A stretch of 35,824 bases of DNA. Origin: Trueperaceae bacterium (lineage in GTDB: Bacteria; Deinococcota; Deinococci; Deinococcales; Trueperaceae). The stretch spans positions 1 to 35,824 of the forward strand of contig REEJ01000142.1 of assembly GCA_007695125.1 (NCBI GenBank), written 5' to 3'. The notes under the pieces are model-generated. The model was not told where the DNA came from, made no database searches, and saw only the letters and a list, made by a program, of their open reading frames with translations. The translations under genes were made by a program, and so were the position numbers. Numbering within the stretch: position 1 is the first letter of the stretch; every line of letters begins with the position of its first letter. Below are positions 2 to 33,822 of this stretch, piece by piece.

Positions 2-1201
2 AACGTCGGCTCGTTCCTCGGCGGCGGCACGCTGCGCAGCTACGGCAAGGGCATGGCGATGGGTCCGGCCGATGCCGACGAGCTCACGACCATGCGGCGG
101 GTGCTCGAGGAGGCGATGGAGGACGGCGCCTTCGGCGTCTCGTACGCGCTGATCTACCCACCCGACGCCTACGTCGACACGCCGGAGCTGATCGACGTGT
201 GCCGCGCGATGGCCCCCTACGGCGGCGTGTACATCACCCACCTGCGCTCGGAGTCCGGCGGCATCTTCGAGGCGCTCGACGAGGCTTTCACCATCGGCCG
301 CGAGGCCGGCGTGCCGGTGGAGGTCTACCACCTCAAAGCCTCGCACCCGGCCAACTGGTGGCGCATGCCGTCGGTGATCGAGCGCATCGAGCGCGCCCGC
401 GAGGGCGGACTCGACGTGACGGCCGACATGTACCCGTACCCGGCCTCCGGGACGGGACTCTCGGCGATCCTCCCGACCTGGACGGCCGAGGGCGGGCGGT
501 TGTACGAGCGCCTGCGCGACCCCGCCGCGCGCGCGCGGGTGCGCGCGCAGCTCGAAGGGCTCGAGCCGCACGACGGCATGGGCCTCGAGACCGACGGCGG
601 CGCGCACGGCGTGATGCCGGTCGGCTTCAAGCGCCCCGAACACCAGCCATACGTGGGCATGAGGCTGTCCGAGATCGCCGAGCTGCGCGGCCAGGACTGG
701 ATCGAGACCGTGCTCGACCTGCTCGCCACCGAGGGTCAGCGCATCAGCACCATCTACTTCTCGATGACCGAACGCAACCTGCGCCGGCAGGTGGTCCAGC
801 CCTGGCTGACCTTCTCGACCGACGCGGGTGGCTTCGATCCGGCCTGGGCCAAGCCGCTCGGCCCGTACCACCCGCGCGCCTACGGCACCTACCCGCGTGT
901 GCTGCGGAAGTACGTGCGCGAGGAGCGCCTCCTCACGCTCGAGGAGGCGATCCGCAAGATGACCTCCGCCGTCGCAAACCGCCTGTCGCTGCGCGACCGA
1001 GGCGTGCTGCGCGAGGGCGCGTTCGCCGACCTGGTGCTGCTCGATCCGGACGAGATCGCCGATCGCGCCACCTTCGACGACCCGCACCAGCTCTCGGTCG
1101 GCGTGCACGACGTGTGGGTGAACGGCGAGCGGGTGCTGCGCGGTGGTGAGCACACCGGCGCGACGCCGGGGCGGTTCGTCAAGGGACCGGGTGCAGCGTG
1201 A
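2..1201 (+). CDS. N-acyl-D-amino-acid deacylase / D-aminoacylase-type amidohydrolase, 5' truncated by window edge
   Basis: Frame open from base 2 (NVGSFLGGGTLRSYGKGMAMG...); EAMEDGAFGVSYALIYPPDAYVDTPELI, GVYITHLRSES, VEVYHLKASHPANW, DMYPYPASGTGL, FSTDAGGFDP and C-terminal GVLREGAFADLVLLDPDEIADRATFDDPHQLSVGVHDVWVNGERVL are typical of the family. Confidence 0.9.
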   Translation, partial: NVGSFLGGGTLRSYGKGMAMGPADADELTTMRRVLEEAMEDGAFGVSYALIYPPDAYVDTPELIDVCRAMAPYGGVYITHLRSESGGIFEALDEAFTIGREAGVPVEVYHLKASHPANWWRMPSVIERIERAREGGLDVTADMYPYPASGTGLSAILPTWTAEGGRLYERLRDPAARARVRAQLEGLEPHDGMGLETDGGAHGVMPVGFKRPEHQPYVGMRLSEIAELRGQDWIETVLDLLATEGQRISTIYFSMTERNLRRQVVQPWLTFSTDAGGFDPAWAKPLGPYHPRAYGTYPRVLRKYVREERLLTLEEAIRKMTSAVANRLSLRDRGVLREGAFADLVLLDPDEIADRATFDDPHQLSVGVHDVWVNGERVLRGGEHTGATPGRFVKGPGAA

Positions 1202-1268
1202 GCCGGGCGTGGCCCGCGCGTGATAGCGTGCGGCCGTCCACGACGTCTCACACGAAGGAGCACCCCCA

Positions 1269-1559
1269 ATGACCGAGATCGAGACCCTCCGCAAGTCCGA
1301 CCTTGCCGAACTCGTCAGCGCGCGGACCAACCTCAACCGCAGCCAGGCCGCGCATGCGGTCGCCGCCGTCTTCGACGTGATGTTCGAGGCACTGACCGAG
1401 GAGAAGCGTGTCGCCATCACCGGCTTCGGCACCTTCGACGTGCGCGCCTCCCGGGAGCGCACCGGCGTGAAGCCCGGCACCTCGGAGCGCATCACCATCC
1501 CGGCGCGGAAGCGCGTCGGCTTCAAGGTCAGCAGCCCGCTGAAGAACGCCGTCAAGTAA
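1269..1559 (+). CDS. HU-family DNA-binding protein
   Basis: 96 aa; LRKSDLAELVSARTNLNRSQAAHAVAAVFDVMFEALTEEKRVAITGFGTFDVRASRERTGVKPGTSERITIPARKRVGFKVSSPLKNAV; AAGGAG upstream. Confidence 0.96.
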   Translation: MTEIETLRKSDLAELVSARTNLNRSQAAHAVAAVFDVMFEALTEEKRVAITGFGTFDVRASRERTGVKPGTSERITIPARKRVGFKVSSPLKNAVK

Positions 1560-1577
1560 GGCACGGACGCTGGTAGA

Positions 1578-1611
1578 CCGCTGGCCCCTGGCGTGAGTCG
1601 GGGGCCAGCGG
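1578..1611 (+). terminator. terminator-like hairpin downstream of HU gene
   Basis: Perfect 11-bp inverted repeat CCGCTGGCCCC (1578-1588) / GGGGCCAGCGG (1601-1611), 12-nt loop, 18 nt after the stop codon; no clear T-tract. Confidence 0.6.
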
Positions 1612-1656
1612 ACCACGGCGGACGCTCGAGGGGGCCGGCGCGTACGCGCGTGTCGA

Positions 1657-1670
1657 GGGACGATCGTCCC
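1657..1670. promoter_or_regulatory. 14-bp perfect palindrome GGGACGATCGTCCC, candidate operator upstream of BTAD-STAND gene
   Basis: Read directly; a second 12-bp palindrome GCGCGTACGCGC lies at 1638-1649; -10-like TAGAGT at 1701-1706 just before ATG 1716. Confidence 0.4.
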
Positions 1671-1715
1671 GAATCCCGTACGTGTGAACGTGCGATGCCC
1701 TAGAGTGACGCCACC

Positions 1716-4370
1716 ATGCTGCTGCGCACCCTGGGTGGGCTCGCGCTCGAGGGCTCGGCGTTGACGCGACCGAAGCCGTTGGTCGTGCTCGCGTACCTCG
1801 CGCTCGAGGGGCCGACGCCGAGACGGCGGCTCGCGGAGGTCCTATTTGGCGACGCCGTCGACCCGCGGGACAGCTTGTCGACCGCGCTGCGCCACCTGCG
1901 CGCGGCTGAAGCCGCGAACACGCTCGCCGGCGACATCGTTCGCTGCAATGTGGCGTGTGATGCAACGGCGCTGCTCAACGCCTTCGACGGCTATCGCTAC
2001 GCCGAGGTCGTCGCGGCGTACGCGGGTGCTTTCCTCGACGGGTGTGATGTCGGTCTCGGCGTCGAGGCCGAGGAGTGGTTGTTCGAAACCCGCGAGACGA
2101 TCGCGAGCCGTGTGCGAGCGGCGAGCGTGCACGAGGCTCGTGCGGCTCTGCACGCGCAACGCTACGACGACGCTCGGCGCTTGGCTGGGCGGGCGATCGC
2201 CCTAGCCGAGGCGGCCGACATCGAGTCGGACGAGCTCGCCGTGTTGCTGGCCATCTCGGAGGCCACTGAGATGCCCGAGGCCGCGCGGTTGCGCGCCATG
2301 GCAAGCGCGATGGACGTGGATGCGCTCGACGTCGTCGCGCTCGCGTCGACGCACGACGTCGGTAGCGGCAGTCTCCACCGGACGACGCGCCTCATCGGCC
2401 GCACCAACGAACTCGCTCTGCTCGCCGACAAGCTGACCGAGTCGGACGAACGTGTGTTGGTCGTCTTCGGTCTCGGCGGCGTCGGCAAGACGCGACTCGT
2501 CGCACGGTTCGCGCAGTCCGTGCCAGCTCGGCACCGGAACCGTTTCCCCGATGGCGCGGTCTTCGTTCCGTTGGATGGCGTCGTCGATGCGAGCGGCTTG
2601 GTCGCCGCCGTCACGGCCACCATCGTGCTCGGCGGCGGCCAGGGCCGAGGCATCGACGGCCTCGTCCGGGCGCTGCAGGCGTGGCGCGGTGTGGTCGTAC
2701 TCGACAACGTCGAGCAGATCGAGGATGTCGAGGCGGTCATCCGCAGGTTGACCGAGGGTTGCCCCGACCTCGTCGTACTCGCCTCGAGTCGGCGTCGGCT
2801 CGCGTTGCATGCCGCGTACCACATCGAGTTGACCGGACTGCGGACGGACGAACGCCCGGGTGGCTCGGAGGCGACCACGCTCTTCCTCGATCGTGCGGCA
2901 CGGGCGGGCGGCCCGACGGCGTTCAGCGACGCAGACATGGTCACGATCGGGCGTATCACGAGGCTGCTCGACGGGCACCCGCTCGCCGTCGAGCTTGCGG
3001 CGGCGATGACGCGCGCGTTCGGTGTCGAACGGATCGAGGCGCACCTCGGCGAGGACCTCAGCGTGCTCGAGAGTCGCGCGGTGGACGTGCCAGAGCGACA
3101 CCATACGGTTTCCTCGTTGCTCGAGCCGACCTGGCAGCGACTGGACGAGAGCGATCGCCATGCCCTCGTCCGGCTGGCGACCTTCGCATCGGGGTTCACC
3201 CTCGAGGCGGCCAAGGTCGTCGCTGCATTGGGGCCTCAGCGCTTGCTCCGCCTCGTCGACGTCGCAGTCGTGCACGTGGAGGGTGGCGGGCGCGGTCGCT
3301 ACCGCCTGCATCCGATCGTGCGCGGTTTCGTCCGCGAGCGGGCCGACGAGGCCACGTGGCAGCAAGCCCTCACGGCACACGCTGCGTTCGTCCGGTCGTA
3401 CCTCGGCGATCTGGACGCGGCGCTCGCAGTCGACCGCGCCCGCGCCATCGAGCGCCTCTCGGTCGATCGTGAGGAGGTGCGCTCTGCGGTGGCGTTCGCG
3501 CTCGGCGAGGGAGACGTACAGGCGGCCGGCGCGATGCTCCACACCCTCGTCGTGTCGGGTGATCTGCTGCAGGCCCGTGGTGCTGACGAGCACCTCATCG
3601 ATCTGGTCACACGGGTTGCCCAGGCATCGCTCGACCACGGCGAGCGAGCGGTCGCGGAGCGGCTCTTCACGAAGGCGGCGAACGCCACCCGCACCTTCAT
3701 CGGTGATGCCGAGGCCGCGATCGCGCTCTACCGACGTGCGCTGGCGGTCGCCGAGGAGACGGGTGACCTCGTCCGTCAGGCCGGGCATCACGCGATCCTC
3801 GGCATGATGGTGTTCGACCGTGACCGTGCCGCGAGCGACCGTGCCCTCGCCAAGGCTCGCGCGTTGGCCGACGCGGCGGACGACGAGATGGCGGCCGCCG
3901 AGGTGTTGACTCGGGTCGCGTACTGTGCCGGCCGCGTTCGAGACTGGGTCGAGCTCGAGGCGATCGCCTCCGCCCTCCTCGCGCGCCTCGATCGCATCGA
4001 GGCACATCCTGAGGCCGACCGCTCGCGTGTCGATGCAATGCGGTACAGCGCCATGCACAACCGGGCCGTAGCCGTCGACGAACAGGGCGACAAGCGCCGA
4101 GCGATGGGGTTGCGGCGCGAGGCGCTCGCCTTCGCCGAGGCGAGAGGTCACCTGTTGTGGCAAGGTTACGCCCACGCGGATATCGCACGAGGGTTGGACG
4201 AAGCCGGTGATGCGGCGGCCGCGGCGTTCCATGCCGCCAGTGCCCGGGAACTCTTCGTCCGCCTCGGGGCACGCGACGAACTCGCTGCGTTGGAGCGCGA
4301 TGTCGGGACCGTGTTCGGTGCCCAGAGCGCGCCCGGTACCGGGGGCGGCGCACCGGCGGTTCGCTCGTGA
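1716..4370 (+). CDS. SARP/AfsR-like protein: N-terminal winged-helix + BTAD, STAND (NB-ARC-type) ATPase, C-terminal TPR-like repeats
   Basis: wHTH-like LTRPKPLVVLAYLALEGPTPRRRLAEVLFGDAVDPRDSLSTALRHLRAA; BTAD AAYAGAFLDGCDV...EEWLFETRETIASRV; Walker A GLGGVGKTRL (2469-), Walker B VVVLDNVEQ (2691-), LASSRRRL; helical repeats toward C-terminus. Confidence 0.9.
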   Translation: MLLRTLGGLALEGSALTRPKPLVVLAYLALEGPTPRRRLAEVLFGDAVDPRDSLSTALRHLRAAEAANTLAGDIVRCNVACDATALLNAFDGYRYAEVVAAYAGAFLDGCDVGLGVEAEEWLFETRETIASRVRAASVHEARAALHAQRYDDARRLAGRAIALAEAADIESDELAVLLAISEATEMPEAARLRAMASAMDVDALDVVALASTHDVGSGSLHRTTRLIGRTNELALLADKLTESDERVLVVFGLGGVGKTRLVARFAQSVPARHRNRFPDGAVFVPLDGVVDASGLVAAVTATIVLGGGQGRGIDGLVRALQAWRGVVVLDNVEQIEDVEAVIRRLTEGCPDLVVLASSRRRLALHAAYHIELTGLRTDERPGGSEATTLFLDRAARAGGPTAFSDADMVTIGRITRLLDGHPLAVELAAAMTRAFGVERIEAHLGEDLSVLESRAVDVPERHHTVSSLLEPTWQRLDESDRHALVRLATFASGFTLEAAKVVAALGPQRLLRLVDVAVVHVEGGGRGRYRLHPIVRGFVRERADEATWQQALTAHAAFVRSYLGDLDAALAVDRARAIERLSVDREEVRSAVAFALGEGDVQAAGAMLHTLVVSGDLLQARGADEHLIDLVTRVAQASLDHGERAVAERLFTKAANATRTFIGDAEAAIALYRRALAVAEETGDLVRQAGHHAILGMMVFDRDRAASDRALAKARALADAADDEMAAAEVLTRVAYCAGRVRDWVELEAIASALLARLDRIEAHPEADRSRVDAMRYSAMHNRAVAVDEQGDKRRAMGLRREALAFAEARGHLLWQGYAHADIARGLDEAGDAAAAAFHAASARELFVRLGARDELAALERDVGTVFGAQSAPGTGGGAPAVRS

Positions 4371-4440
4371 ACGATGTTCAGGTCGCCCACTGCGACGCGC
4401 TGGGCGTGACTTCCACGCAGTGGGTCGGGAGGTGGTTGGG

Positions 4441-6084
4441 ATGAAGCGTTCGGCTGTCGTGCTGCTCATGGCCGTGATGATGGCCGTCGGCACGGTCCTC
4501 GGGCAGGGGGACGACGCCCCGGACCGGTTCTGGTACCTGCGACTCGGTGCGCCACTCGGTGCCGTCGTACCGACCACACCGGACCTGCGGCTTGTGCCGA
4601 TGCTTCCGGAGCCTTCCTGGCACGGGCCGACGCTCGAGACGTACGAGCACGTCCGAAACTGGGTCCGTGATTACACCGGTTCCGACGAAGGCAGCGATGC
4701 GCTCGAGGCGTTCGTGCGCCTGCTCCAACGTACGGGCACGGATGGGGACGTCACGTACCACAGGTCGCTGCGGTCCGACGACGAGGACGACGCACTCGAT
4801 TCGTGCGGCCTCGTCGGCGGCGCGGGCCGCCTCGTCGGCGATGGCGGTGGCGGCGTACTGTTCGCGGACGGCGGCGCCGGCCGTCTCGTCGGAGATGGTG
4901 GAGCGGGCCGTCTCGTCGGCGATGGCGGAGCTGTCCTCCAGGTTCGGCCCGACCCATACTTCGTTGCCAGTGACGTCGTCGAACCCTGGGCACTCGAGCT
5001 AGAGCACGTCGCCGGCCAACTCCCCGGTCTCGCGGGTACGGCGTTTGCGATCGTCGACCGGTTCGACCTCGACAGGTTGCCGGTACGCGACACGGGACGC
5101 ATAGACCGCGAGGCGGCGCTCCTCGCGGCGGCCGATCTGGTCCTCGCCGCTCGTGACGAGACCGACGGCGTGGTCGTCGTGCCACATGGCCACCTCGTTC
5201 TCCACCACATGCTGCAGCTCGTCATCGCCCAGGTCCCGGAGGGCTCGCAGGTCCTCGTCACCGTTGGCGAGGCCACCGGGGACGGCCCGACGCGCGTGGA
5301 CGTCTCGTGGGACGATGTCGAGGGCAGCGTTCGGATCGACCTGTACCCCATGCAGTACGACACCTTGGACGGTCTCGAGGATGCGCTCGCATCTCTCGCG
5401 GCTGACGACACCGTGCGCATCGTCATGAGCTGGACGCTCTCGAACTGCGTCCTCGTCGAGCGCTACATGCAAGAGGTCGACGTCGACGCGTTGCGCGAGA
5501 CGGGTGTGGCAGGAACGACCGACCTTGTGGTGGAGTCGTACGCCGCGTTCCTCATCGACCTGATCGGCCTGGCGCGTAGTGGAGACGAGGCCGAGCTGCT
5601 GGACACGTTGTGCGAGGCGTTCGGAGGTGTCGAGCAGCCGTGCACCGACTCGTTCCTCATCGCGGTGCTCCTCGCGTTCCTCGATGGACGTGCGGAGGCT
5701 GACGTTGGCGCATCGATCGAGCAGGAGCACCTGTGGCGCCGCGTCTTCGCGGCGGCCGGGAACCACCGCATGCCGTTCCCGCTGCCGCCTGCGTCGTGGC
5801 CGCACGTGTACGGCGTAGCGGCATGCATGCCCACGCTGACGGGCAACGCGTGGTTCACGAACCGCGGTGACGTCGTACGGAACGAACACGTCCTCGCCCC
5901 GGGCGCGTGGTACCCGGTGGCCTCGACGACCGACGGTGATGGCCAGCTCGGCTACTGGGGGACCTCCTTCGCCGCCCCGTACGCGGCGCTGGCGTTCACC
6001 GCGTCGCAGTCGGTACCCGACGGTCCTCACGTCTTGGGCACGTGCACAGACGAGTTCGTCAAGGCCCAGTACGCATCGCAGTGA
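4441..6084 (+). CDS. secreted, divergent subtilisin-like (S8 family) peptidase with internal GAGRLVGDG repeats
   Basis: Signal peptide MKRSAVVLLMAVMMAVGTVLGQ; RBS GGGAGGTGG; S8-like Asp block FAIVDRFD, His block VVVPHGHLVLH, oxyanion-Asn block AAAGNHRMPFP, Ser block GYWGTSFAAPYAALA. ORF track start at 4207 overlaps the upstream gene and is rejected. Confidence 0.75.
   Translation: MKRSAVVLLMAVMMAVGTVLGQGDDAPDRFWYLRLGAPLGAVVPTTPDLRLVPMLPEPSWHGPTLETYEHVRNWVRDYTGSDEGSDALEAFVRLLQRTGTDGDVTYHRSLRSDDEDDALDSCGLVGGAGRLVGDGGGGVLFADGGAGRLVGDGGAGRLVGDGGAVLQVRPDPYFVASDVVEPWALELEHVAGQLPGLAGTAFAIVDRFDLDRLPVRDTGRIDREAALLAAADLVLAARDETDGVVVVPHGHLVLHHMLQLVIAQVPEGSQVLVTVGEATGDGPTRVDVSWDDVEGSVRIDLYPMQYDTLDGLEDALASLAADDTVRIVMSWTLSNCVLVERYMQEVDVDALRETGVAGTTDLVVESYAAFLIDLIGLARSGDEAELLDTLCEAFGGVEQPCTDSFLIAVLLAFLDGRAEADVGASIEQEHLWRRVFAAAGNHRMPFPLPPASWPHVYGVAACMPTLTGNAWFTNRGDVVRNEHVLAPGAWYPVASTTDGDGQLGYWGTSFAAPYAALAFTASQSVPDGPHVLGTCTDEFVKAQYASQ
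4819..4926 (+). repeat. four tandem 27-bp units encoding GAGRLVGDG / GGGVLFADG / GAGRLVGDG / GAGRLVGDG
   Basis: Read codon by codon in frame of the S8-like gene. Confidence 0.9.
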
Positions 6085-6192
6085 TCGATGACATGTCGTG
6101 TGCGGGACGTGGACGGGCCGTGAACGGACCCACTCCGCCACAGTGATGCCACCCACCGGGGAGACCGGTAGGCGCGAGATGGGAGGACGCGC

Positions 6193-7062
6193 ATGCAGGG
6201 GCATCACACGACATATACCGGATCGACCGGCAATCGGCAGGGCGCGGCGACGTTCCCTGCGCGGCGTCGGAGCGCCGCGTTCGTCACGAGGCCAGGCGTG
6301 GAGCGCCGAGGCGGTCACCGCGTGCCGCGCCGTGCGCGGCGTCGGTCGGGCGAGGTGCGCGCGACGCTGCTGCTGCTGGGGCCACCGAGACTGCGCCACG
6401 ACGGTGCCCTCATCGACTTACCTCTGGCGCGTTGGACGGCCCTGCTCGCCTACCTCGCGCGGGGCGGCGGTTGGGTCCGACGGGAAGTACTCGCAGCACT
6501 GTTCTGGCCCGAGCACGATGATCACGGCGCCAACTTGAACCTCCGCCAGACACTCCAGACGATCGTCCGCTCGCTCGCGGGCAGCGCGCTGCAGCGTGAA
6601 CCTACCCGCGTCCGATGGGCAGGTGGCTGCGACGTCGAGGCATTCGACGCCCTGGTACGAGGGCAAGACTGGGGGTCGGTCGTACGCTCCTACGGCGGCG
6701 CGTTCCTCGACGGCCTCGACGTGCCGGACGTACCCACGGTTCAGGAGTGGATCGACGCGGAGCGCACCGGTCTGCATGCCTGCTGGAGAACCGCTGCGTT
6801 GCTCGAAAGCCGCGCCGCGCTCCTCGAGGGTCGCTTCCTCGACGCCCTGCCGCTGGCTGAACGGCTGTGCCGCACGGACGCCTTCGACGAGGAGGGACTG
6901 CGCTTGCTGCTCGAGGCGTTGGTTCGCTGCGGCGACCGGACGCGCGCAGAGCGCACGTTCGCGGGGGCGGTGCAGGCGTTCGTGGGCGAGCTCGGTGTCG
7001 AGCCCGAGCCGGAGACGATGGCGCTGGCACGGACGCTCGGGCTGTCGAGTGAGCGTGCCTGA
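6193..7062 (+). CDS. stand-alone SARP/BTAD-domain transcriptional regulator (start may be GTG 6355)
   Basis: VRATLLLLGPPRLRHDGALIDLPLARWTALLAYLARGGGWVRREVLAALFWPEHDDHGANLNLRQTLQTI; SYGGAFLDGLDV...VQEWIDAER; GELGVEPEPETMAL, typical BTAD C-terminus. GGGAGG before 6193, but residues before VRATLLLLG look low-complexity. Confidence 0.85.
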   Translation: MQGHHTTYTGSTGNRQGAATFPARRRSAAFVTRPGVERRGGHRVPRRARRRSGEVRATLLLLGPPRLRHDGALIDLPLARWTALLAYLARGGGWVRREVLAALFWPEHDDHGANLNLRQTLQTIVRSLAGSALQREPTRVRWAGGCDVEAFDALVRGQDWGSVVRSYGGAFLDGLDVPDVPTVQEWIDAERTGLHACWRTAALLESRAALLEGRFLDALPLAERLCRTDAFDEEGLRLLLEALVRCGDRTRAERTFAGAVQAFVGELGVEPEPETMALARTLGLSSERA

Positions 7063-7120
7063 GCCGGCAGCACCTTCGTCGTAGGGCGGAGCGCGCTACC
7101 CTGGTCCCAAGGAGGCCTCC

Positions 7121-7597
7121 ATGACCGATCCGGTCGACCGCGACGCGTTCAATCGCACCTTCCTGTACCTACTCGACGAGATCGTCGGCGAGCCGCCCAA
7201 GGACTCGCCGGGCACCGCGGTGCTCGACCCCGATGCCGGTTGGCTGCAGACGCTCCTGACGGTGGACCATACGCGGGCGTCACGGACCATCGCCCAGGGC
7301 GGCACCACGATCGCCGGCCAGGCGGCGCACGCGGCGTACTACGTCGAGCTGCTCGAGCAGCTCGCCAGGGGCGAGGACGTCGAGGCCGACTGGCCCCGGA
7401 GCTTCGTCCCGAGCGTCGTCGACGAGGGGCGCTGGGAGGAGACGCGGGCGCGGCTGCTCGCGGCGCTGGCGCGCTTCCGCGCGATGGTCCTCGCCGTCGA
7501 CGAGTGGGACGAGGAGCGCCTGCGCGGCGCGCTGGGCGTGCTGGTGCACACCGCCTACCACCTCGGCGCCGTGCGGCAGATGATCCGCGTCGTCTGA
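7121..7597 (+). CDS. DinB-like helical-bundle superfamily protein
   Basis: 158 aa; LLTVDHTRASRTIAQGGTTIAGQAAHAAYYVELL...LGVLVHTAYHLGAVRQMIRVV with spaced His typical of DinB-like fold; AAGGAGG RBS. Confidence 0.7.
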   Translation: MTDPVDRDAFNRTFLYLLDEIVGEPPKDSPGTAVLDPDAGWLQTLLTVDHTRASRTIAQGGTTIAGQAAHAAYYVELLEQLARGEDVEADWPRSFVPSVVDEGRWEETRARLLAALARFRAMVLAVDEWDEERLRGALGVLVHTAYHLGAVRQMIRVV

Positions 7598-7608
7598 TCC
7601 GCGTCGTC
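7581..7608. repeat. 14-bp perfect tandem duplication TGATCCGCGTCGTC x2 spanning the DinB-like stop codon
   Basis: Direct reading: tgatccgcgtcgtc tgatccgcgtcgtc tga. Confidence 0.95.
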
Positions 7609-7663
7609 TGACGCGCGCCGACGCTGCCGTATCCTGCGTTCGAGCAGGAGAGGAGCGTGGGAC

Positions 7664-8491
7664 ATGCGCGTGTACGTGTCGTCCGACATCGAGGGCGTGG
7701 CCGGCGTGGTCACGTCGCAGCAGGGGAGCCCGAGCGGCGGAGTTGAGTACGAGCGTGCGCGCCGCCTGATGACCGCCGAGGTCAACGCGGCCGCTGCCGC
7801 GGCCTTCGATGCCGGGGCGTCGACCGTGGTGGTGAACGACGCACATGGTCCCAACACCAACCTCCTCGTCGAGTCGCTCGACGAACGCGTGCACCTCATC
7901 ACGGGGAAGCCCAAGGCGCTCAACATGGTGCACGGCGTCGACGAGGGCTTCGACGCGGCGCTGTTCCTCGGCTACCACGCCCGCCCGGGCACCGCCGAGG
8001 CGATCTTGGACCACGCCTACGTCGGCACGGTCGTCGACGAGCTGCGCCTGAACGGCGAGCCTCACGGCGAGTTCGGCCTGAACGCGATGCTCGCCGGCTC
8101 GTTCGGCGTGCCCGTCGTGATGGCCAGCGGTGACGACAAGCTCGCGGCCGAGGTCGCGGAGCTGCTGCCGCAGACCGAGGTGGCGGTGGTGAAGTGGGCG
8201 ACGGGTCGCATGGCCGCACGCACGCTGATGCCCGGACCGGCGCGCGTCGCGATCGCCTCCGCCGTCACACGCGCTTTGCGCGCGACGCGTCCGGAGTGCG
8301 TCCTGCGTCCGCCCGAGGGTGACCTCGAGCTCGACGTCCGCTTCGTCTCGACGATCCAGGCCGACCTGGCGTCGATCATGCCGGGCGCGCGGCGCGTCGA
8401 CGGGCGCACCGTGCGGTTCGTCCACGACGACTACGCCGAGGTGTTCCGAGCCTGCCGCGCGCTGATCGCCCTGGGCCAGGCCGCCTCGTGA
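7664..8491 (+). CDS. M55 family D-aminopeptidase (DppA-like)
   Basis: MRVYVSSDIEGVAGVV, VVNDAHGPNTNLL, ALFLGYHARPGT, LNGEPHGEFGLNAMLAGSFGVPVVMASGDD. Confidence 0.93.
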   Translation: MRVYVSSDIEGVAGVVTSQQGSPSGGVEYERARRLMTAEVNAAAAAAFDAGASTVVVNDAHGPNTNLLVESLDERVHLITGKPKALNMVHGVDEGFDAALFLGYHARPGTAEAILDHAYVGTVVDELRLNGEPHGEFGLNAMLAGSFGVPVVMASGDDKLAAEVAELLPQTEVAVVKWATGRMAARTLMPGPARVAIASAVTRALRATRPECVLRPPEGDLELDVRFVSTIQADLASIMPGARRVDGRTVRFVHDDYAEVFRACRALIALGQAAS

Positions 8492-8566
8492 GCGAGCAGC
8501 TCGTGGTCGCCAACGCGCGGCGTGCCCGACACCTGCGCTCCCGACGCCTGCGCGCCTGACGCCCGC

Positions 8567-10048
8567 CTAGAATTTCCCGCCCGTCCGGAAGCCGCCGCCG
8601 CCGATCCTGCCGCCGGTGCGGAAGCCGCCGCCGCCGAAGCCGCCGCTCGGAGGCCGCGGAAGCGAGGGAGCGCGCGGGATCGACGGCGGCCTGGGCGCCC
8701 CGCCACCGCTCGACCACGGCGACCCACGCCCGAAGCCGCCCGAGCCGAAGGTCGGGTTGCTGCGTTGCGGTGCCTGCCGGCGCTGCTGTTCCAGCACGCG
8801 CCACAGGGCGTCGCGGGTCATCGCGCCCTGCAGGAACTGCGCCAGCATCGTTGCGACGAGCGTGCCGTCGGCGAAGGTCGAGCCCGGCTGGTCCATCCGC
8901 TGGCGCGTGTAGTCGCTGCGCAGGCGCTCGAGCTCGCGCACGCGCTCGCGGTTGCGCGTCGCGACCTCCTTCAGCTCGCGGAGCGTGGCCTCGGTGGTCG
9001 TCCGGTCGCGCTCGAGGTCGAGCAGCCGCGCGACGATCGCGTCGTCCTCGGGGAACGGCGTCGCCAGCGCCTGGCGCCGCAGCGCCTGGAGGTCGTCGCG
9101 TCCGAGCTCGGAGGCGAGGAAGGCGAGCGCCTCGCGGTAGGCGTCGTCCTCGCCCTTGGCCGTGCGCTCGAGTGCGTCGTGCGCGGTGTCGCGCTCGAGC
9201 GCCAGCGCCGCAAGGCGCTCGTCGGCAGCGGCGAGGGCGGTGGCTGCCTCGTCCCGCGCGGCCTCGTGGGCGCTGACGCCGTCGGCGTCGCGTGCGGCAC
9301 GGTCGAGCGCAGCCAGCGCCGCGTGTGCCGCCTCGGCCCGTTCCGCCACCCGTTCGGCGTGCTCGTGCAGCCGCTCGGGCAGCTCCTGCAGCCGGGTGAA
9401 GTTCAGTCGCGCCGCGTCGAAGCCCACGTGCCGTGCGACCTTGCCGTCGAGCCAACGGATCGGCGGCATGGCGCGGTACGCGCTCGTGCCGAAGCGGCGG
9501 CGCCACAGGTACATGAAGAGCGGATCGTCGTGGTACGCGCGCTCCTTCTGGCTGCGCTCCTCCGCGCTCTGGGCGGCCTTCTCGGCGGCGTGGTCAGCGG
9601 TGCGCGCGGCCTCCCGAGCCGCCGCGCGCGCCGCCCGGTAGGCCTCGTCGTCGTCGAGCCGCGCCTGCGTCGCCGCCTCCGCCTCGTCCAGGGCGGCCTC
9701 GGCATCCTCGAGGACGTCGGCGAGGCGTTCGCGCTCACCCTCCGTGGCGCCCGCCTCGGTGGCCAGCCGATCGAGGTCGGCGTGCAGCGCGTCGATGCGC
9801 TCCTGGCGGCGCTCGAGCATCGCCAGCACGCGGGCATCGGCGTCGGCGACACGCTGCGCCGTGCGGTCGCGCTCCAGGTGCTCGAGGCGCAGCCGAGCCA
9901 GGGCCTCGATGGCTTCGCCGCGGCCGACGTCGACCTCGGCGAGACGGCGGCTCGCCTCCGACAGCCGCCGCTCGACGTCGTCCAGTCGCTTCTGCTCCTT
10001 GGCGATCGCGCCTTGGATGGTCCCCAGCGCCTGCCGCCCCGTGGTCAT
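8567..10048 (-). CDS. coiled-coil protein with Gly/Phe/Arg/Pro-rich C-terminal tail, function unknown
   Basis: Start MTTGRQALGTIQGAIAKEQKRLDDVERRL with GAGGAGG RBS (preferred over ORF track start 10081); long Ala/Glu/Arg heptad-like segments; tail GGFGGGGFRTGGRIGGGGFRTGGKF. Confidence 0.75.
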   Translation of the reverse strand: MTTGRQALGTIQGAIAKEQKRLDDVERRLSEASRRLAEVDVGRGEAIEALARLRLEHLERDRTAQRVADADARVLAMLERRQERIDALHADLDRLATEAGATEGERERLADVLEDAEAALDEAEAATQARLDDDEAYRAARAAAREAARTADHAAEKAAQSAEERSQKERAYHDDPLFMYLWRRRFGTSAYRAMPPIRWLDGKVARHVGFDAARLNFTRLQELPERLHEHAERVAERAEAAHAALAALDRAARDADGVSAHEAARDEAATALAAADERLAALALERDTAHDALERTAKGEDDAYREALAFLASELGRDDLQALRRQALATPFPEDDAIVARLLDLERDRTTTEATLRELKEVATRNRERVRELERLRSDYTRQRMDQPGSTFADGTLVATMLAQFLQGAMTRDALWRVLEQQRRQAPQRSNPTFGSGGFGRGSPWSSGGGAPRPPSIPRAPSLPRPPSGGFGGGGFRTGGRIGGGGFRTGGKF

Positions 10049-10058
10049 GAGGACCTCC

Positions 10059-10994
10059 TCACCATCGCGTGATCGCCCCACCGCTGGTCGGGATGGTGTA
10101 CTCGGGCGCCAGCGCGCCGGCGCGCTTCGCGCCCACGAGGCGGTCCTCGATGATCCCGTCGGCCGCCTTGTCGGCGGCGACGCGCTCGAACACCTCCTGC
10201 GGGACGCGCAGGCCCCACGTGCTCACGCGCTCGACGCGCCCGGTCTCCTCGTTGGTCACCTCGACCCGCACCGGCCTGCCGGCGTCGTCGACGGCCTCGA
10301 CGATCAGGTAGTAGTTGCGCGCCGCCGTGTTCACGTCCGGCACGCGCCAGACGCCGCTCACGGCGTTCGGCCCAGCCGCGATCACGAGCTCGTAGCGCTG
10401 CTCCAGCAGCGCCGCGAGCGATGCCAGCGCGTCGACCTCGACGCGTGCGGCAGCGGTGTCGCCGCGCTGCAGTGCGGCCTCGCCTGCAGCGAGCATCGCT
10501 GCTGCGCGCTGCAGCGCGGCGGGGGCGTCCGTGCCGGACGTGACCCGGGCGTGCACCGAGCTCAGGTCGGCGGCGAGCGCCTGGCGTGGCACCACCACCG
10601 TGGCGTGACGCACGCCCAACACGAGGGCGATCACCGCGACCACGACGACGGCGAGCGCCGCCAGCGAGGCGCGGTGCACGTACAGTCGCGCCAGCGTGGT
10701 CGCGAACCCTGGTGGCGGCGGACGGTAGGCGAAGCGGTCCTCGCGCAACGCCGCGACACCGGCCGCGAGTACGTGCTCGGGCACGTCGATCCCCTGCGCG
10801 GCGTAGGTCGCGCGCAGCCGTTCGATCAGCGCCGCCTCGCGCACCTCGCCCTGCAGTTCCTGCTCGACGAGCCCCTGTCGGTGTCGCAGCGTGTCGACGA
10901 CGTCCATGGCGAGCATGACCTCGTCGAGCGCGACGCCGCTGGTCTGCGGCGCTGCGCCGGCCGCCGCGGGGGTGGGTGCGACCGCGTCCGTCAC
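10059..10994 (-). CDS. DUF6384-like single-TM protein
   Basis: VALDEVMLAMDVVDTLRHRQGLVEQELQG; TM segment ASLAALAVVVVAVIALVLGV; C-terminal NYYLIVEAVDDAGRPVRVEVTNEETG...TWGLRVPQEVFERVAADKAADGIIEDRLVGAKRAG. Confidence 0.7.
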   Translation of the reverse strand: MTDAVAPTPAAAGAAPQTSGVALDEVMLAMDVVDTLRHRQGLVEQELQGEVREAALIERLRATYAAQGIDVPEHVLAAGVAALREDRFAYRPPPPGFATTLARLYVHRASLAALAVVVVAVIALVLGVRHATVVVPRQALAADLSSVHARVTSGTDAPAALQRAAAMLAAGEAALQRGDTAAARVEVDALASLAALLEQRYELVIAAGPNAVSGVWRVPDVNTAARNYYLIVEAVDDAGRPVRVEVTNEETGRVERVSTWGLRVPQEVFERVAADKAADGIIEDRLVGAKRAGALAPEYTIPTSGGAITRW

Positions 10995-11001
10995 GGGCGC
11001 C

Positions 11002-12168
11002 TCAGAGCGCCGCGGACTGCGCCAGCTTGGCCAGGCGGCGCTTGCCGTCCTCGACGGCGCCGGCGATCTCCTGTGCGTTCACCGTGCTGTGGACCCGCAT
11101 CTCCTCGATGATCTCGCGCGAGCGCGACTGGTAGTCCACCACGGCGTCGACGAGCCGTTTGACGGCGTCCGCCCGGATCGTCGGCCCGTACCCGGCCCGC
11201 AGTGCCTCCTCTTGGACCTTGCCGCCCATGTCGGCCAGGACCTCGAGCGATTGGCTCACGCCCTCCTTCATCGCGTCGAGGGTCCGGGTCGCCTCGTGCA
11301 GGCCCGTGAGTCCGCTGAACGACGCGGTCAGCGCCGTGAGCACCGTCTCGTTCGTGCCGAAGAAGCTGACCGCCTGCGCGTTCACGCGCTCCTTGGCGGT
11401 GTGCGACTGCATCATCCGGCCCATCACCACTTCGGAGGTGTTGTAGCTGATGGTCAGGTTGTCGGCCAGGTCCTTGGCGATCTGATAGCGGCGGTCCGAG
11501 GCCTGGAGCGCCCTGACGGCCTCGTCGCGCGCCAGTTCGAGCCGCGCCCGCGCGGCCGCGTCGTCGCCCTCCGCCTGCTCGACCGCCTGCATCGAGGCAC
11601 CCACGGCGTCCTTGGCGGCCTGCCGCTGGGCCTCGGCCGTGTCGAGCACCTCGAAGGCGAGCACCTCCGCCTGCTTGAGCGCGCCGCGGAAGTCCTGGTA
11701 GGCCTCGAGGATGGTCCGCTCGCGACGGATCTGGTCGAGCGACGACGCGCTGACCTCGAGGTAGGTGCGCTTGATGCGGTCGAAGCGTTGTGCGATGTCG
11801 CCGCGCGTGACCTTCATCCACACGTTCGCGAGCCGCTCGAAGGTCGAGATGCGACCGTCCTCGACCTGATCGACCATCGCCTTGGCGTCGTCGCGGATGC
11901 TGTTGAAGTCGTTGACGATGCGCTCGTAGCGGGTGCCGATCTCCATCGCAGCGACCTGCTCGCGCACCACCTCGTTGAAGAGCGACGCCTGGGCCAGCGT
12001 GCGGGTGATGGCCACCACGCGGTCCTCGTCGAGGTCGCTGATCTGCTGCAGCAGCGCGACGATGGGGGCCTCATGGCTCGCTGCGCCTTCGGGCACCAGG
12101 CCGAGGTTGCGCAGGGCCTGCATGGCCCGGTCCAGGTAGGCGAGGGGCGTGGGCGATTCGACGGTCAT
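11002..12168 (-). CDS. alpha-helical protein of the family usually annotated 'cell surface protein' (possibly TelA-like), function unknown
   Basis: SFFGTNETVLTALTASFSGLTGLHEATRTLDAMKEGVSQSLEVLADMGGKVQEEALRAGYGPTIRADAVKRLVDAVVDYQSRSREIIEEMR. Confidence 0.65.
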   Translation of the reverse strand: MTVESPTPLAYLDRAMQALRNLGLVPEGAASHEAPIVALLQQISDLDEDRVVAITRTLAQASLFNEVVREQVAAMEIGTRYERIVNDFNSIRDDAKAMVDQVEDGRISTFERLANVWMKVTRGDIAQRFDRIKRTYLEVSASSLDQIRRERTILEAYQDFRGALKQAEVLAFEVLDTAEAQRQAAKDAVGASMQAVEQAEGDDAAARARLELARDEAVRALQASDRRYQIAKDLADNLTISYNTSEVVMGRMMQSHTAKERVNAQAVSFFGTNETVLTALTASFSGLTGLHEATRTLDAMKEGVSQSLEVLADMGGKVQEEALRAGYGPTIRADAVKRLVDAVVDYQSRSREIIEEMRVHSTVNAQEIAGAVEDGKRRLAKLAQSAAL

Positions 12169-12623
12169 ATCGGCCTCCCGGGCGCCGCGGCGCCGCGGGC
12201 GATCCAGGCTGGCGGCGCGTGCATGGCTCCATCATCGTCGTGACGCGACGGCGCGGCAAGGGGGGGTCCTCGGCGAGCACATCCACACTGATCCGGCCGG
12301 CCGCGTGCGCGTCGTTGAGTATCATGGTGACGAGTCGCCCGCCTGGGCGGACGCCTCTTGGCCTGCCTCGCTGCAGCCTCGAGCGCAGCGGCGTGGTTCG
12401 AGTGCGTGGCTGCGCTGGACCGGGAGCGGCTGCGGGGCATCGCGCGTCGGCCCTCGCTCGATCTCGCCGACCCGGTTCGCGGGGCGGCGGGAAGTCCGAC
12501 CTGCGCACGCTCCTCCTCGCTGTCGATCCCACCGCGCACCACCTCGAGCAGTGCATCGTGGTGCGTCGCTTGCTCGGTGCCTGACCGCTGCGTCAGGGCT
12601 GGGCTTCGGCAAAGGAGGGACCC

Positions 12624-13907
12624 ATGCGCAACGTCTTCGTCCTCGCGCTCGACGCCTTCAACCGCCGGCAGCTCGAGCGGGTGGAACGGGCCAGCGATTA
12701 CCGCTTCCATCCGCTGCTCGGGTTCGAGGATGTCAAGCTCGGTCACCACGGCAAGATCCCGGAGATCATCGAGCGTGCAAGCGACGAGCTCGAGCGCTTC
12801 GCCCGCACCGGCGGCTCGGTCGACGGCATCATCGGCTTCTGGGACTTCCCCGTCCAGACGCTGGTGCCGATCCTGCGTGCCAGGCGTGGGCTGCCCGGGC
12901 CGACGCTCGAGAGCGTGTTCAAGTGCGAGCACAAGTACTGGAGCCGGCTCGAGCAGCGCGAGGTGGTGCCCGATCAGGTCCCGAGCTTCACGACCTTCGA
13001 TCCGCACGCGCACGATGTGGCCATCGAGCTCGAGCCCCCCTATTGGGTGAAGCCCGTCAAGTCGGCGGCGTCCCAACTCTGCTTCCTCATCGAGACCGAC
13101 GCCGATCTCGAGCATGCCCTGGCGGCTCTACGCCAAGGCATCGAGCGGTTCGGGGTCTCTTTCGACCAGTTGCTGTCGTACGCGGACCTGCCCGACGAGG
13201 TGGCGGCCGTCACCGGTCATCACTGCATCGCCGAGACCGCCCTGACCGGCGACCGTTACACGCTGTCGGGCTACGCGGTAGACGGCGAGGTGGTGATCTA
13301 CGGCGTTGTCGACTCGCTCACCTATCCGGGCAGGTCGTCTTTCGCGCGCTTCCAGTACCCTTCGAAGGCGCCTGCTGCGCTCAAGGAGCGGATGATCGCG
13401 AGCGCGACGACGGTCATCCGGCGGATCGGTTTCGATCGTGAAGCGTTCAACATCGAGTTCCTGCACGACCGTTCGCGCGATCTGCTGGGGCTGCTCGAGA
13501 TCAACCCGCGCATGTCGCAGTCCCACGGCGATCTGTACGCGAGGGTCGACGGCCTGCCCAACCAGAAGATCGTCAGCGACCTCGCGGTCGGCCGGAGACC
13601 CGAGTTCCCGCGACGCCAGGGGGCGTACGCCTACGCGGCCAAGTGCTACCTGCGCCAGTTCACGGATGCCGTCGTGACCCGCGTCCCCGACGCCGAGGGC
13701 ATCGCACGAATCGAGCGCGAGGTCGATGGAGCCCTGATCGACCTCAAGGTCGCGGAGGGTATGCGGCTCTCGGAGCTGTCCGGGCAGGACGCCTACAGCT
13801 ACGCGCTGGCGTGGATCTACGTCGGCGGTGACTCCGAGGAGGCGCTGCAGGATGCGTACGCGCGCTGCGTCCAGGGGCTCGGCATCGGCCTCGAGATGCG
13901 AGCGTGA
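12624..13907 (+). CDS. ATP-grasp domain protein (carboxylate-amine ligase-like)
   Basis: PPYWVKPVKSAASQLCF, HCIAETALTGDRYTLSGYAVDGEVVIYGVVDS, FNIEFLHDRSRDLLGLLEINPRMSQSHGDLY; AAAGGAGGG RBS. Confidence 0.85.
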   Translation: MRNVFVLALDAFNRRQLERVERASDYRFHPLLGFEDVKLGHHGKIPEIIERASDELERFARTGGSVDGIIGFWDFPVQTLVPILRARRGLPGPTLESVFKCEHKYWSRLEQREVVPDQVPSFTTFDPHAHDVAIELEPPYWVKPVKSAASQLCFLIETDADLEHALAALRQGIERFGVSFDQLLSYADLPDEVAAVTGHHCIAETALTGDRYTLSGYAVDGEVVIYGVVDSLTYPGRSSFARFQYPSKAPAALKERMIASATTVIRRIGFDREAFNIEFLHDRSRDLLGLLEINPRMSQSHGDLYARVDGLPNQKIVSDLAVGRRPEFPRRQGAYAYAAKCYLRQFTDAVVTRVPDAEGIARIEREVDGALIDLKVAEGMRLSELSGQDAYSYALAWIYVGGDSEEALQDAYARCVQGLGIGLEMRA

Positions 13908-16346: not shown

Positions 16347-17897
16347 ATGATCGAGCGTCATCATTCGAGCCGGCGACCGTCCTGGCGACCGCGTGCGCTG
16401 TTCGTGCTCGCGCTCGCCGCCCTGCTCGGCAGCGCCACGGTGCTCGCCGCGAGCGACGAGACCCTCAGCGTCCGCGCCCGCAACGGCGCCGACATCAACA
16501 CGATGGACCCGGCGTTCTACCAGGGCAACGAGGAGTACAACGTCGACATGGTGCTCTACAGCAAGCTGGCGCGCTTCGCGCCGAACAGCACCGAGTTGGT
16601 GCTCGACGCCGCCGAGTCGCTCGAACTCAGCGACGACGGCACCGTGGTCGAGTTCCGCTTGCGCGAGGGCATCCAGTTCCACCACGGGTACGGCGAGATG
16701 ACCAGCGAGGACGTGAAGTTCTCGTTCGAGCGCATCGCCGATCCCGACAACGACTCGCCCTACGCATCGGAGTGGAGCGCGCTCGTGGAGGTCGAGACCA
16801 TCGATCGCTACTCCGGCCGCATCATCCTCGACGACGTCTACGCCCCGCTGCTCAGCTCGTCGATCCCCTTCACCACGGGCAGCATCGTCAGCAAGGCGGC
16901 CTTCGAGGACCGCGGGGAGCAGTTCGCCACGCAGCCCGTGGGCTCGGGCCCGTACTACTGGGCGTCCTGGGAGCCCAACCAGCGACTCGTGCTCGAGCGC
17001 TTCGACGATTACTACGGCGAGGCGCCGCACTTCAAGACCATCGAGGTGCTGCCGATCCTGGACCCGCTGATCGCGGAGTTCTCGTTCGACGTCGGCGAGA
17101 TCGACGCCACCGAGGTGTCGCTCGAGTCCGTGGACCGCTACCTCCAGGACGACACCGTGGTCGTGAACGTGCTCGACACGCTTCGTTACCACTGGCTCAG
17201 CTTCAACACCCAGGCAGCGCCCTTCGACGACGTACGCGTGCGTGAAGCCGTCCGCTACGCGGTCGACGTCGACGAGGTCCTCACCGGCGCGTACAACGAC
17301 GTCCCCAACCGCGCCAACACGATGCTCGCCCCCGACATCCTCGGGCACTGGGCCGACGCCCCCGCCTACCAGCCGGACCTGGAGCGCGCGCGGGAGTTGC
17401 TCGCCGAGGCCGGCTACCCCGACGGGTTCAGCACCACCCTCATCACCGACGACGTGCCCGTGCACCAGCAATCGGTGGCGATCATCCAGCAGCAACTGCG
17501 CCGCATCGGCATCGACGCCAGCATCCGCATCGTCCAGAGCATGTTCGAGACGATCGGTCAGGGGGGCGCCGAGGGCATGCACTACGCCAGCTTCTCGGCC
17601 GTGCTCGACCCCGGCTACTGGTTCGAGTGGTTCTCCTGCGACCAGATCGGCGCGTGGAACTACTGGCAGTGGTGCAACGAGGAGTACGACGAGCTGAAGG
17701 ACCGTGCCGCCCGCACGGCCGAGCCCGAGGAGCGCGCGGCGTACTACGTGCGCATGCAGCAACTCATCGACGAGGACGTGGCCGCCATCTGGACCACGAA
17801 CGGCGCCAGCATCTACGTGCATCGCGCCGGTGAACTCGATCCCGCGTTCGTGGCCATGTACGCCCAGTACATGTACTGGACCGGGCCCGTGGACTGA
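16347..17897 (+). CDS. ABC transporter substrate-binding protein, family 5 (peptide/opine type)
   Basis: Start after GGAGG at 16336-16340; signal RALFVLALAALLGSATVLAA; DINTMDPAFYQGNEEYNVDMVLYSKLARF; QPVGSGPYYWASWEPNQRLVLERFDDYYGEAPHF; DDVRVREAVRYAVD. Confidence 0.95.
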   Translation: MIERHHSSRRPSWRPRALFVLALAALLGSATVLAASDETLSVRARNGADINTMDPAFYQGNEEYNVDMVLYSKLARFAPNSTELVLDAAESLELSDDGTVVEFRLREGIQFHHGYGEMTSEDVKFSFERIADPDNDSPYASEWSALVEVETIDRYSGRIILDDVYAPLLSSSIPFTTGSIVSKAAFEDRGEQFATQPVGSGPYYWASWEPNQRLVLERFDDYYGEAPHFKTIEVLPILDPLIAEFSFDVGEIDATEVSLESVDRYLQDDTVVVNVLDTLRYHWLSFNTQAAPFDDVRVREAVRYAVDVDEVLTGAYNDVPNRANTMLAPDILGHWADAPAYQPDLERARELLAEAGYPDGFSTTLITDDVPVHQQSVAIIQQQLRRIGIDASIRIVQSMFETIGQGGAEGMHYASFSAVLDPGYWFEWFSCDQIGAWNYWQWCNEEYDELKDRAARTAEPEERAAYYVRMQQLIDEDVAAIWTTNGASIYVHRAGELDPAFVAMYAQYMYWTGPVD

Positions 17898-17914
17898 ACG
17901 GACGCTCCGGTGAC

Positions 17915-17942
17915 GCGCCGCGGGGCATCGCGCCCGCGGCGC
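17915..17942 (+). promoter_or_regulatory. stem-loop between SBP and permease genes
   Basis: Perfect 10-bp stem GCGCCGCGGG (17915-17924)/CCCGCGGCGC (17933-17942), 8-nt loop. Confidence 0.65.
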
Positions 17943-18013
17943 GAGCCCGCGCGCGCCACCACCATGACGCTTTCCGAACCACGAGCCGCTCCTCCTGAAG
18001 GTCGACGGGCGCC

Positions 18014-18955
18014 GTGATCGTCTACACGGTGCGGCGCCTGCTGACCGCCGTCGCGACGGTGATCGGCGCGGTGACGCTGCTGTTCCTGATCATCCGGCTC
18101 ATCCCCGGCGATCCCGCCGTGGTGATGCTCGGTCCGCGCGCGAGCCCCAGCATGATCGCGTCGATGCGCGAACGGATGATGCTCGACGAAAGCGTCCACG
18201 TGCAGCTGTTGGCGTTCCTCGGCAACGTGTTGCGGGGCGACCTCGGCCGCGACGTGCTCAACGAGCTACCGGTGTTGGGCATGGTGCTCGACGTGTTGCC
18301 CTTCACCATCGTGTTGGCGTTCGGCAGCATCGTGTTGGCGGTGCTGATCGGGGTGCCGTTGGGCACGCTGGCCGCCGCGTACCGCAACTCCTGGCTGGAC
18401 CGGGTCACCGCCTTCGTCTCGGTCGCGTTCATCACGGTGCCCCCCTTCGTGGCCGGGTTGCTGCTCCTGTTGCTGTTCGCGGTCGAGCTGCGCTGGCTGC
18501 CGGTCAGCGGTGGCGGCGTGCGGGGGGACGTCCTCAACCAGGCGCGGCACCTGATCTTGCCGATGCTCGCCCTGGCGCTCACGTGGGTGGGCTACATCGC
18601 CCGCCTGATCCGCTCCTCCGTGCTCGAGGAGATCACCAAGGACCACGTGCGCACCGCGACCAGCAAAGGGCTCAGCCCGGGTCGGGTGCTGTTCAAGCAC
18701 GTGTTGCGGGGTGCGCTCATCCCCACGATCGCCGTGCTCGGCGTCGGCTTCGGCAACCTGCTGGGCGGCGCCGTGTTGATCGAGATCATCTTCAACCGCC
18801 CGGGTCTGGGGTTCTTGATCTTCAACGCGATCGAGTCGCGCAACTACCCCGTGGTCCAGGGGGGCTTGGTGGTCGCCGTGTTCCTGTACACGTTGGCCAA
18901 CGTGATCGCCGACGTGTCGTACGGCTTCGTCGACCCACGGATCCGGGAGGCCTGA
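18014..18955 (+). CDS. ABC transporter permease, DppB-like
   Basis: IVYTVRRLLTAVATVIGAVTLLFLIIRLIPGDPAVVMLG; EEITKDHVRTATSKGLSPGRVLFKHVLRGALIPTIAVLGVGFGNLLGGAVLIEIIFNRPGLG. Confidence 0.97.
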   Translation: MIVYTVRRLLTAVATVIGAVTLLFLIIRLIPGDPAVVMLGPRASPSMIASMRERMMLDESVHVQLLAFLGNVLRGDLGRDVLNELPVLGMVLDVLPFTIVLAFGSIVLAVLIGVPLGTLAAAYRNSWLDRVTAFVSVAFITVPPFVAGLLLLLLFAVELRWLPVSGGGVRGDVLNQARHLILPMLALALTWVGYIARLIRSSVLEEITKDHVRTATSKGLSPGRVLFKHVLRGALIPTIAVLGVGFGNLLGGAVLIEIIFNRPGLGFLIFNAIESRNYPVVQGGLVVAVFLYTLANVIADVSYGFVDPRIREA

Positions 18956-18956
18956 C

Positions 18957-33744: not shown

Positions 33745-33761
33745 GAATGTGACGCTCCTGG

Positions 33762-33811
33762 CGTCGGGCCGCTGGAGCGACGGAGACGACCGCCTCTCCA
33801 GAGGCCCGACG
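33762..33811 (-). promoter_or_regulatory. long stem-loop between SBP and permease genes of second ABC operon
   Basis: CGTCGGGCC (33762-33770) pairs GGCCCGACG (33803-33811); after one mismatch CTGGAG (33772-33777) pairs CTCCAG (33796-33801). Confidence 0.65.
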
Positions 33812-33822
33812 GTGGCGAAGGC

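Follow-up and report, generated by a model that had tools for sequence, protein, structure and literature searches.

An exported subtilase-like protein and a STAND/TPR regulator form a recurrent gene pair, probably for signaling, in Trueperaceae

Why would a gene for an exported protease lie between two genes for transcriptional regulators of the BTAD class? This arrangement occurs in a 35,824-nucleotide stretch of a Trueperaceae bacterium (GenBank assembly GCA_007695125.1, contig REEJ01000142.1), the whole of which is referred to here as the window. A reading made from the DNA letters alone (the sequence-only reading) had noted three consecutive plus-strand genes and proposed that the regulators control the protease as part of a dedicated sensing or conflict-type system. 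Open reading frame analysis places the genes just as that reading did, at positions 1716 to 4370, 4441 to 6084, and 6193 to 7062. They encode an 884-residue STAND regulator with the domain order winged helix-turn-helix (wHTH), BTAD, NB-ARC, winged-helix domain (WHD), and TPR, an AfsR-like architecture; a 547-residue divergent subtilase with an export signal, here called S8L; and a stand-alone wHTH-BTAD regulator. The trio is more than a chance neighborhood, as the three genes recur in other genomes. Its constant part is the pair of the STAND/TPR protein and the exported S8L, whereas the BTAD part is not constant.

S8L and STAND genes stay together across genomes

The search turned up about 30 S8L genes, which belong to 18 of the 111 Deinococcota genomes searched and to one metagenome-assembled genome (MAG) labeled Chloroflexi. 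All but one of them adjoin a co-oriented STAND gene or lie one gene away from it, with two of the pairings drawn across contig ends. The recurrence of S8-like genes beside BTAD-STAND genes, which the sequence-only reading had made the touchstone of its proposal, is thus a repeated linkage that extends across Trueperaceae and to one genome of the Deinococcaceae family and the Chloroflexi MAG.

In the core clade, which comprises the genus of the window (g1) and genus g16, every fully readable locus has the three genes next to one another and in one orientation (the locus L031 in genome G003 is cut by a contig end). The flanking genes differ among g1, most of g16, and genome G037, so what is conserved is the unit rather than a large syntenic block. 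The third gene is limited to this core subclade, where an orthologue is present in 7/7 fully readable loci besides the window. The earlier picture of paralogous regulators flanking the protease therefore fits one subclade and does not hold elsewhere; at the locus in genome G001 (L032), the order is S8L-STAND-BTAD.

A second clade has the STAND and S8L genes without the third gene (L024, L036, L037, L038, L040, L087 to L091, L180, and others). It takes in a genome that we read as belonging to the Deinococcaceae family (G104, group f4, locus L090) as well as the MAG labeled Chloroflexi (L051), whose contig may have been mis-binned. In G104, the gene that immediately follows the S8L pair (positions 9285 to 11834, plus strand) encodes a papain-family (C1) protein with PKD domains.

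A profile scan of a contig collection with the S8L alignment returned 11 loci, one in a Chloroflexi MAG and the others mostly in the same MAGs from Trueperaceae; a contig scan with a single S8-like protein as the query returned nothing. Among 400 Chloroflexota genomes, S8L was found in one (only the top four candidates per genome were scored), and a full-strength match to the TPR profile described below was found in that same genome only. None of the canonical subtilases of other Deinococcota (most of L092 to L100, which match the S8L profile at E values of 1e-11 to 1e-15) lies beside a BTAD-STAND gene, and none of the BTAD-STAND paralogues at about 35 sampled loci unlinked to S8L lies beside S8L.

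The S8L gene at L181 has no STAND gene alongside, and what we read from its sequence as a transposase-like fragment lies upstream. The same genome (G023) also has an orphan partner STAND gene (L199), with a fragment that we likewise read as transposase-like downstream. On the other side of this orphan gene (positions 3258 to 5000, plus strand), a divergent gene encodes another kind of S8 lipoprotein.

A diagnostic TPR domain joined to exchangeable outputs

The domain order that had been read for the first gene, wHTH-BTAD-STAND-TPR, is confirmed by an AlphaFold2 model of the window protein (mean predicted local distance difference test score [pLDDT], 86), and orthologues within g1 and in g16 are 40 to 54% identical to it. 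The closest solved folds are 6mfv (a STAND-TPR protein), CED-4, plant NLRs, Apaf-1, and MalT. All features of this gene are on the plus strand. The secondary structure of the model delimits an N-terminal winged helix (residues 1 to 77; positions 1716 to 1946), which is followed by the helices of the BTAD region (residues 82 to 203; positions 1959 to 2324). The NB-ARC NTPase (model residues 230 to 371; positions 2403 to 2828) is supported by the model, by invariant columns, and by a subthreshold Pfam match to AAA_16/NB-ARC, and it contains the Walker A motif GLGGVGKT (positions 2469 to 2492). The model further shows a WHD at residues 465 to 531 and a TPR superhelix at residues 545 to 870. The AAA_16/NB-ARC match is the only Pfam match of the window protein; BTAD is significant in many of its orthologues.

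Which part of this protein goes with S8L? A profile built on the C-terminal TPR region (window STAND residues 561 to 884; positions 3396 to 4370) scores at least 260 bits for S8L-linked STANDs, versus at most 86 bits for sampled full-length paralogues, and is thus diagnostic for the partnership. It also finds S8L-linked STANDs that were left out of its making (L034 and L087; L199 to L201, at E values of 1e-83 or better); a STAND cut by a contig end (L130) scores 106 bits over 120 residues. Of the 111 Deinococcota genomes, 15 have the TPR domain and all 15 of these have S8L, which is present in 18 (Fisher P = 6e-16, to be taken as descriptive because related genomes are not independent events). 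The copy numbers of the TPR domain and of S8L per genome are nearly equal. Across the Deinococcota genomes (G000 to G110), BTAD-STAND genes as a whole are numerous, with a strong expansion in Trueperaceae and relatives, and most are not beside S8L. Several of them adjoin genes for proteins with secretion signals, an incidental observation.

The output domain is exchangeable. In two relatives (L200 and L201), an N-terminal Ser/Thr kinase with intact VALK, HRDIKP[DE]N, and DFG motifs replaces the wHTH-BTAD part, while the diagnostic NB-ARC and TPR domains are kept. The gene directly downstream of each kinase-STAND gene encodes an exported lipoprotein and is cut off by the contig end, leaving its start. 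In genome G006, this start is similar to the L034 S8L, and another contig of the same genome ends in an S8L gene without its start (L033); genome G007 has a like arrangement, with the startless S8L gene of L035 at the end of another contig. From this, we infer across the contig ends that the kinase-STAND is paired with S8L in both genomes. A separate gene for a 696-residue Ser/Thr kinase lies directly downstream of S8L at L035 (positions 436 to 2526, minus strand), where the presumed partner STAND has a kinase of its own.

In four genomes of two genera (L083 to L086), the gene upstream of S8L encodes a protein that has class III cyclase domains, an AAA_16/STAND region, and TPRs and is reminiscent of soluble adenylyl cyclase. 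S8L lies there between this gene and one for a large permease (L083, positions 3691 to 11825; L084; L085; L086, positions 5448 to 13415); the gene after S8L encodes a SulP-STAS-cNMP-binding permease at L083, the one locus where this composition was confirmed.

The kinase and cyclase partners indicate that S8L follows the sensory half of its partner, not the DNA-binding half. The proposal that the regulators control the exported protease is not supported, as STAND/TPR also occurs with a Ser/Thr kinase output and S8L also occurs with a cyclase-STAND-TPR protein.

S8L is a divergent subtilase with a constrained repeat

The second gene had been read as S8-like with a signal peptide, and the family profile, the invariant catalytic residues, and hydropathy all agree. 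Judged by its sequence, S8L is a divergent subtilase family: the family profile matches subtilisins and Tk-subtilisin at 5e-16, and the score against Pfam PF00082 is 15.4 bits for the window protein (cutoff, 21.8) and 22.0, 25.8, and 28.3 for relatives. In a 27-row alignment, the predicted catalytic residues Asp206 (positions 5056 to 5058), His249 (5185 to 5187), and Ser509, within GTSFAAP (5965 to 5967), and the predicted oxyanion-hole residue Asn441 (5761 to 5763) are invariant wherever rows cover the sites, as are Cys122, Cys336, and Cys535. Hydropathy and a helix at residues 2 to 21 of the model indicate a type I signal peptide without a lipobox (positions 4441 to 4503; these features, like the gene, are on the plus strand). 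Type I signal peptides characterize core-clade S8L proteins, and most noncore members have a lipobox. The longer S8L lipoproteins (L033, L034, and L083 to L086; about 620 to 760 residues) have an extra 150 to 200 residues or so between the lipobox and the repeat region described next. A fold search with the S8L model gave no match at an E value of ≤0.001.

Between Cys122 and the catalytic domain, S8L proteins carry one to four copies of a unit of 7 to 9 residues, a feature overlooked in the sequence-only reading. In the pro-region of the window protein, four copies of G[RV]L[VF][GA]DGG come after Cys122 (positions 4804 to 4929, plus strand, with the repeats themselves at 4825 to 4929). This GRLVGDGG-type unit is replaced in other S8L proteins by GGNPRMDGG, AMRINGS, PYRVVGA, GLNAVGA, GLQAVGA, GVNALGA, GVRAMGS, or LYLSGST. 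Exact tandem repeats of 6 to 12 residues occur in 13 of 27 S8L proteins, compared with 2 of 797 other proteins encoded at the same loci. Among the copies within 13 noncore S8L proteins, 55 codon differences are synonymous and none changes an amino acid; about 29% synonymous would be expected of random single-base changes (the nominal P value of 2e-30 overstates independence, as the proteins are related). Old repeat copies in noncore S8L are thus clearly held to the same residues. Because the unit of these proteins varies between lineages but stays constant inside any one protein, a single partner probably reads all of its copies. This could be the active site of S8L itself or a receptor, for example the TPR domain, which in fold comparison resembles the peptide-binding TPRs of LGN.

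A possible signaling mechanism and its rivals

That S8L and STAND/TPR stay together while the output changes suggests a role for S8L in the input to the switch, not as a regulated effector. We tentatively propose, at slightly less than even confidence, a two-part signaling module in which the TPR-STAND switch reads a repeat peptide that S8L releases or presents. The exported part would be S8L in the envelope (a lipoprotein in most noncore members, secreted in the core clade), with its pro-region supplying a lineage-specific peptide of 7 to 9 residues in one to four copies. S8L may process itself or be processed, which would release or present the repeat peptide as a report of an envelope or extracellular event. 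The cytoplasmic TPR domain would recognize the S8L-derived product; the NB-ARC core would then exchange nucleotide and oligomerize, and the attached output domain would fire, by wHTH-BTAD transcription in the window and by Ser/Thr phosphorylation in the two relatives. In the window, the BTAD output may act on the operon and on other targets, with the stand-alone BTAD protein as a possible relay. In this scheme, we infer the direction of signaling, the release of a peptide, its import, and its binding by the TPR domain. The nearest precedent is RRNPPA quorum sensing in Bacillota, in which extracellular proteases cut tandem pheromone propeptides and cytoplasmic receptors read the products (PMC11343458).

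Several observations weigh against this proposal. The module has no gene for an importer, and as Trueperaceae are expected to be diderm, a peptide would have to cross the envelope. In the core clade, including the window, the repeat copies differ (33 synonymous and 18 nonsynonymous differences), a weaker constraint, and the unit occurs just once in several S8L proteins, which makes repetition dispensable. Confidence in the S8L model is low (pLDDT, 71), and the placement of the repeats relative to the active site is not readable from it. The correlation between the distances of S8L and those of the STANDs (Mantel r = 0.77; P = 2e-4), in itself a point in favor of the proposal, could stem in large part from shared descent. 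Finally, the cyclase-STANDs lack the diagnostic TPR domain: as their scores with the TPR profile (32 to 56 bits) are not above the general TPR level, the cyclase-STAND/S8L arrangement is a separate association and at best an analogous partnership.

The signal could also run in the opposite direction, with the STAND sensing a cytoplasmic or imported cue and switching on S8L, which would be exported as an effector or to scavenge; fine-tuning would fall to the stand-alone BTAD protein, and the repeats would be autoprocessing or inhibitory pro-region sites for the active site of S8L. The STAND-S8L order with short gaps fits an operon under the control of its first gene, activators often adjoin their target genes, as large SARPs do (PMC10972967), and identical, lineage-specific repeats fit cleavage sites that coevolve with the protease's own specificity. 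However, the partners with a kinase output lack a DNA-binding domain and so could not act directly on an S8L promoter, and S8L tracks the STAND/TPR half rather than the BTAD half, with many BTAD-STAND paralogues in the same genomes not beside S8L. We regard this explanation as rather unlikely.

Less probable still is that S8L is a guarded envelope protein. STAND/TPR would then monitor it as an export or envelope-stress sensor, for example by detecting an unprocessed or mislocalized cytoplasmic precursor, with the repeats as the TPR-bound precursor segment and no released peptide. This would account for the constant S8L-TPR pair, the lineage-specific repeats, and the exchangeable outputs while needing no peptide import; however, under this reading the protease active site need not function, yet it is invariant.

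A conflict or defense system, in which an NLR-like immune switch would act through a protease effector, is very improbable: its outline, an NLR-like STAND with swappable outputs (kinase and cyclase), resembles that of known conflict systems (PMC7159879), but the protease is predicted to be exported rather than cytoplasmic, PADLOC gave nothing above noise (best E value, 0.004, for an ATPase fragment only), the neighbors are ordinary housekeeping genes (HU, Der, and transporters), and tblastn of PLSDB plasmids with one S8L (L090) gave no match at the sensitivity used.

Relation to known systems

The window STAND resembles the large SARP or AfsR-type proteins, regulators of antibiotic clusters in Streptomyces (PMC10972967), in size and domain order: it has both the N-terminal wHTH and BTAD and the central NB-ARC with C-terminal TPR, with DNA binding and activation predicted from sequence. 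Unlike large SARPs, its family has a distinct TPR subtype tied to an exported subtilase, and BTAD can be replaced by a kinase. S8L shares with peptidase family S8 the catalytic Asp, His, Asn, and Ser and the GTS-x-AAP motif and is a putative protease; its nearest sequences in the PDB are Tk-subtilisin and the cyanobactin proteases PatA and PagA. Known S8 proteins differ in that only the C-terminal third of S8L matches them well and in the invariant Cys122, Cys336, and Cys535, the repeat-bearing pro-region, and the near-obligatory STAND neighbor. The type VII secretion mycosin MycP is likewise an exported S8 protease; its NCBIfam model (TIGR03921) matches S8L weakly (19.6 bits against a cutoff of 278.75), and we rejected this identity.

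In RRNPP(A) pairs, as in the S8L module, the gene for an exported protein with short, sometimes tandem peptides adjoins one for a cytoplasmic TPR protein; in RRNPP(A) pairs, the peptides are matured by extracellular proteases (PMC11343458). The S8L units instead sit inside a full protease rather than a plain propeptide, the peptide here is a prediction from the genes, and the phylum differs. The receptor is a STAND ATPase and not a TPR protein of the Rap, Rgg, NprR, PlcR, or PrgX type, and because the receptor class differs, we do not class the module as RRNPP. NLR-associated amyloid signaling pairs of fungi and bacteria likewise have a STAND receptor whose neighboring partner bears a short repeated motif; in contrast, the S8L motif is 7 to 9 residues long, its bearer is exported, and it is absent from the STAND, in which the best match to the unit was no better than to shuffled sequence. 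NTPase-centered conflict systems (eLife 2020, PMC7159879) combine NTPase switches, peptidases, and exchangeable outputs, as here, but their peptidases are mostly trypsin- or caspase-like, and neither BTAD nor an exported S8L is mentioned.

The full text of open papers yielded no description of a BTAD-STAND/S8 pair, most subscription papers being outside that search. STAND/S8L appears to be an undescribed signaling pair, with the protease as the probable source of the signal. The fuller claim is doubtful: that a single exported polypeptide both contains the tandem, lineage-specific short peptides as their precursor and matures them as a subtilase, with an NLR-like STAND ATPase as the receptor and exchangeable outputs (transcription, protein kinase, and possibly cyclase), as peptide signaling outside Bacillota. 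Large SARP and BTAD-STAND regulators are numerous in Deinococcota and elsewhere, and few of the cues that they sense are known. For one BTAD-STAND subtype, the exported partner dedicated to it, the diagnostic sensor domain, and the exchangeable outputs bring the question of what is sensed within reach of experiments on one gene pair and a short peptide. Should the repeats prove to be the signal, they would reveal a new principle of signaling between bacterial cells or from the envelope, with an NLR-like receptor.

The stand-alone regulator and neighboring genes of the window

The third gene (plus strand) encodes 289 residues from an ATG start or 235 residues from a GTG at position 6355. Its identification as a stand-alone BTAD protein is upheld by a significant Pfam match (8e-13), and the likeness that had been noticed between its BTAD region and that of the first gene amounts to 35.7% identity (E value, ∼5e-11 by BLASTP). 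A scan of the window for sigma-70 promoters and terminators was uninformative. Elsewhere, the window encodes an amidohydrolase (positions 53 to 1201), an M55 D-aminopeptidase (7664 to 8491), and two apparent peptide-type ABC transporter gene sets (16404 to 19847 and 32006 to 35271), all of which lie outside the S8L module in other genera.

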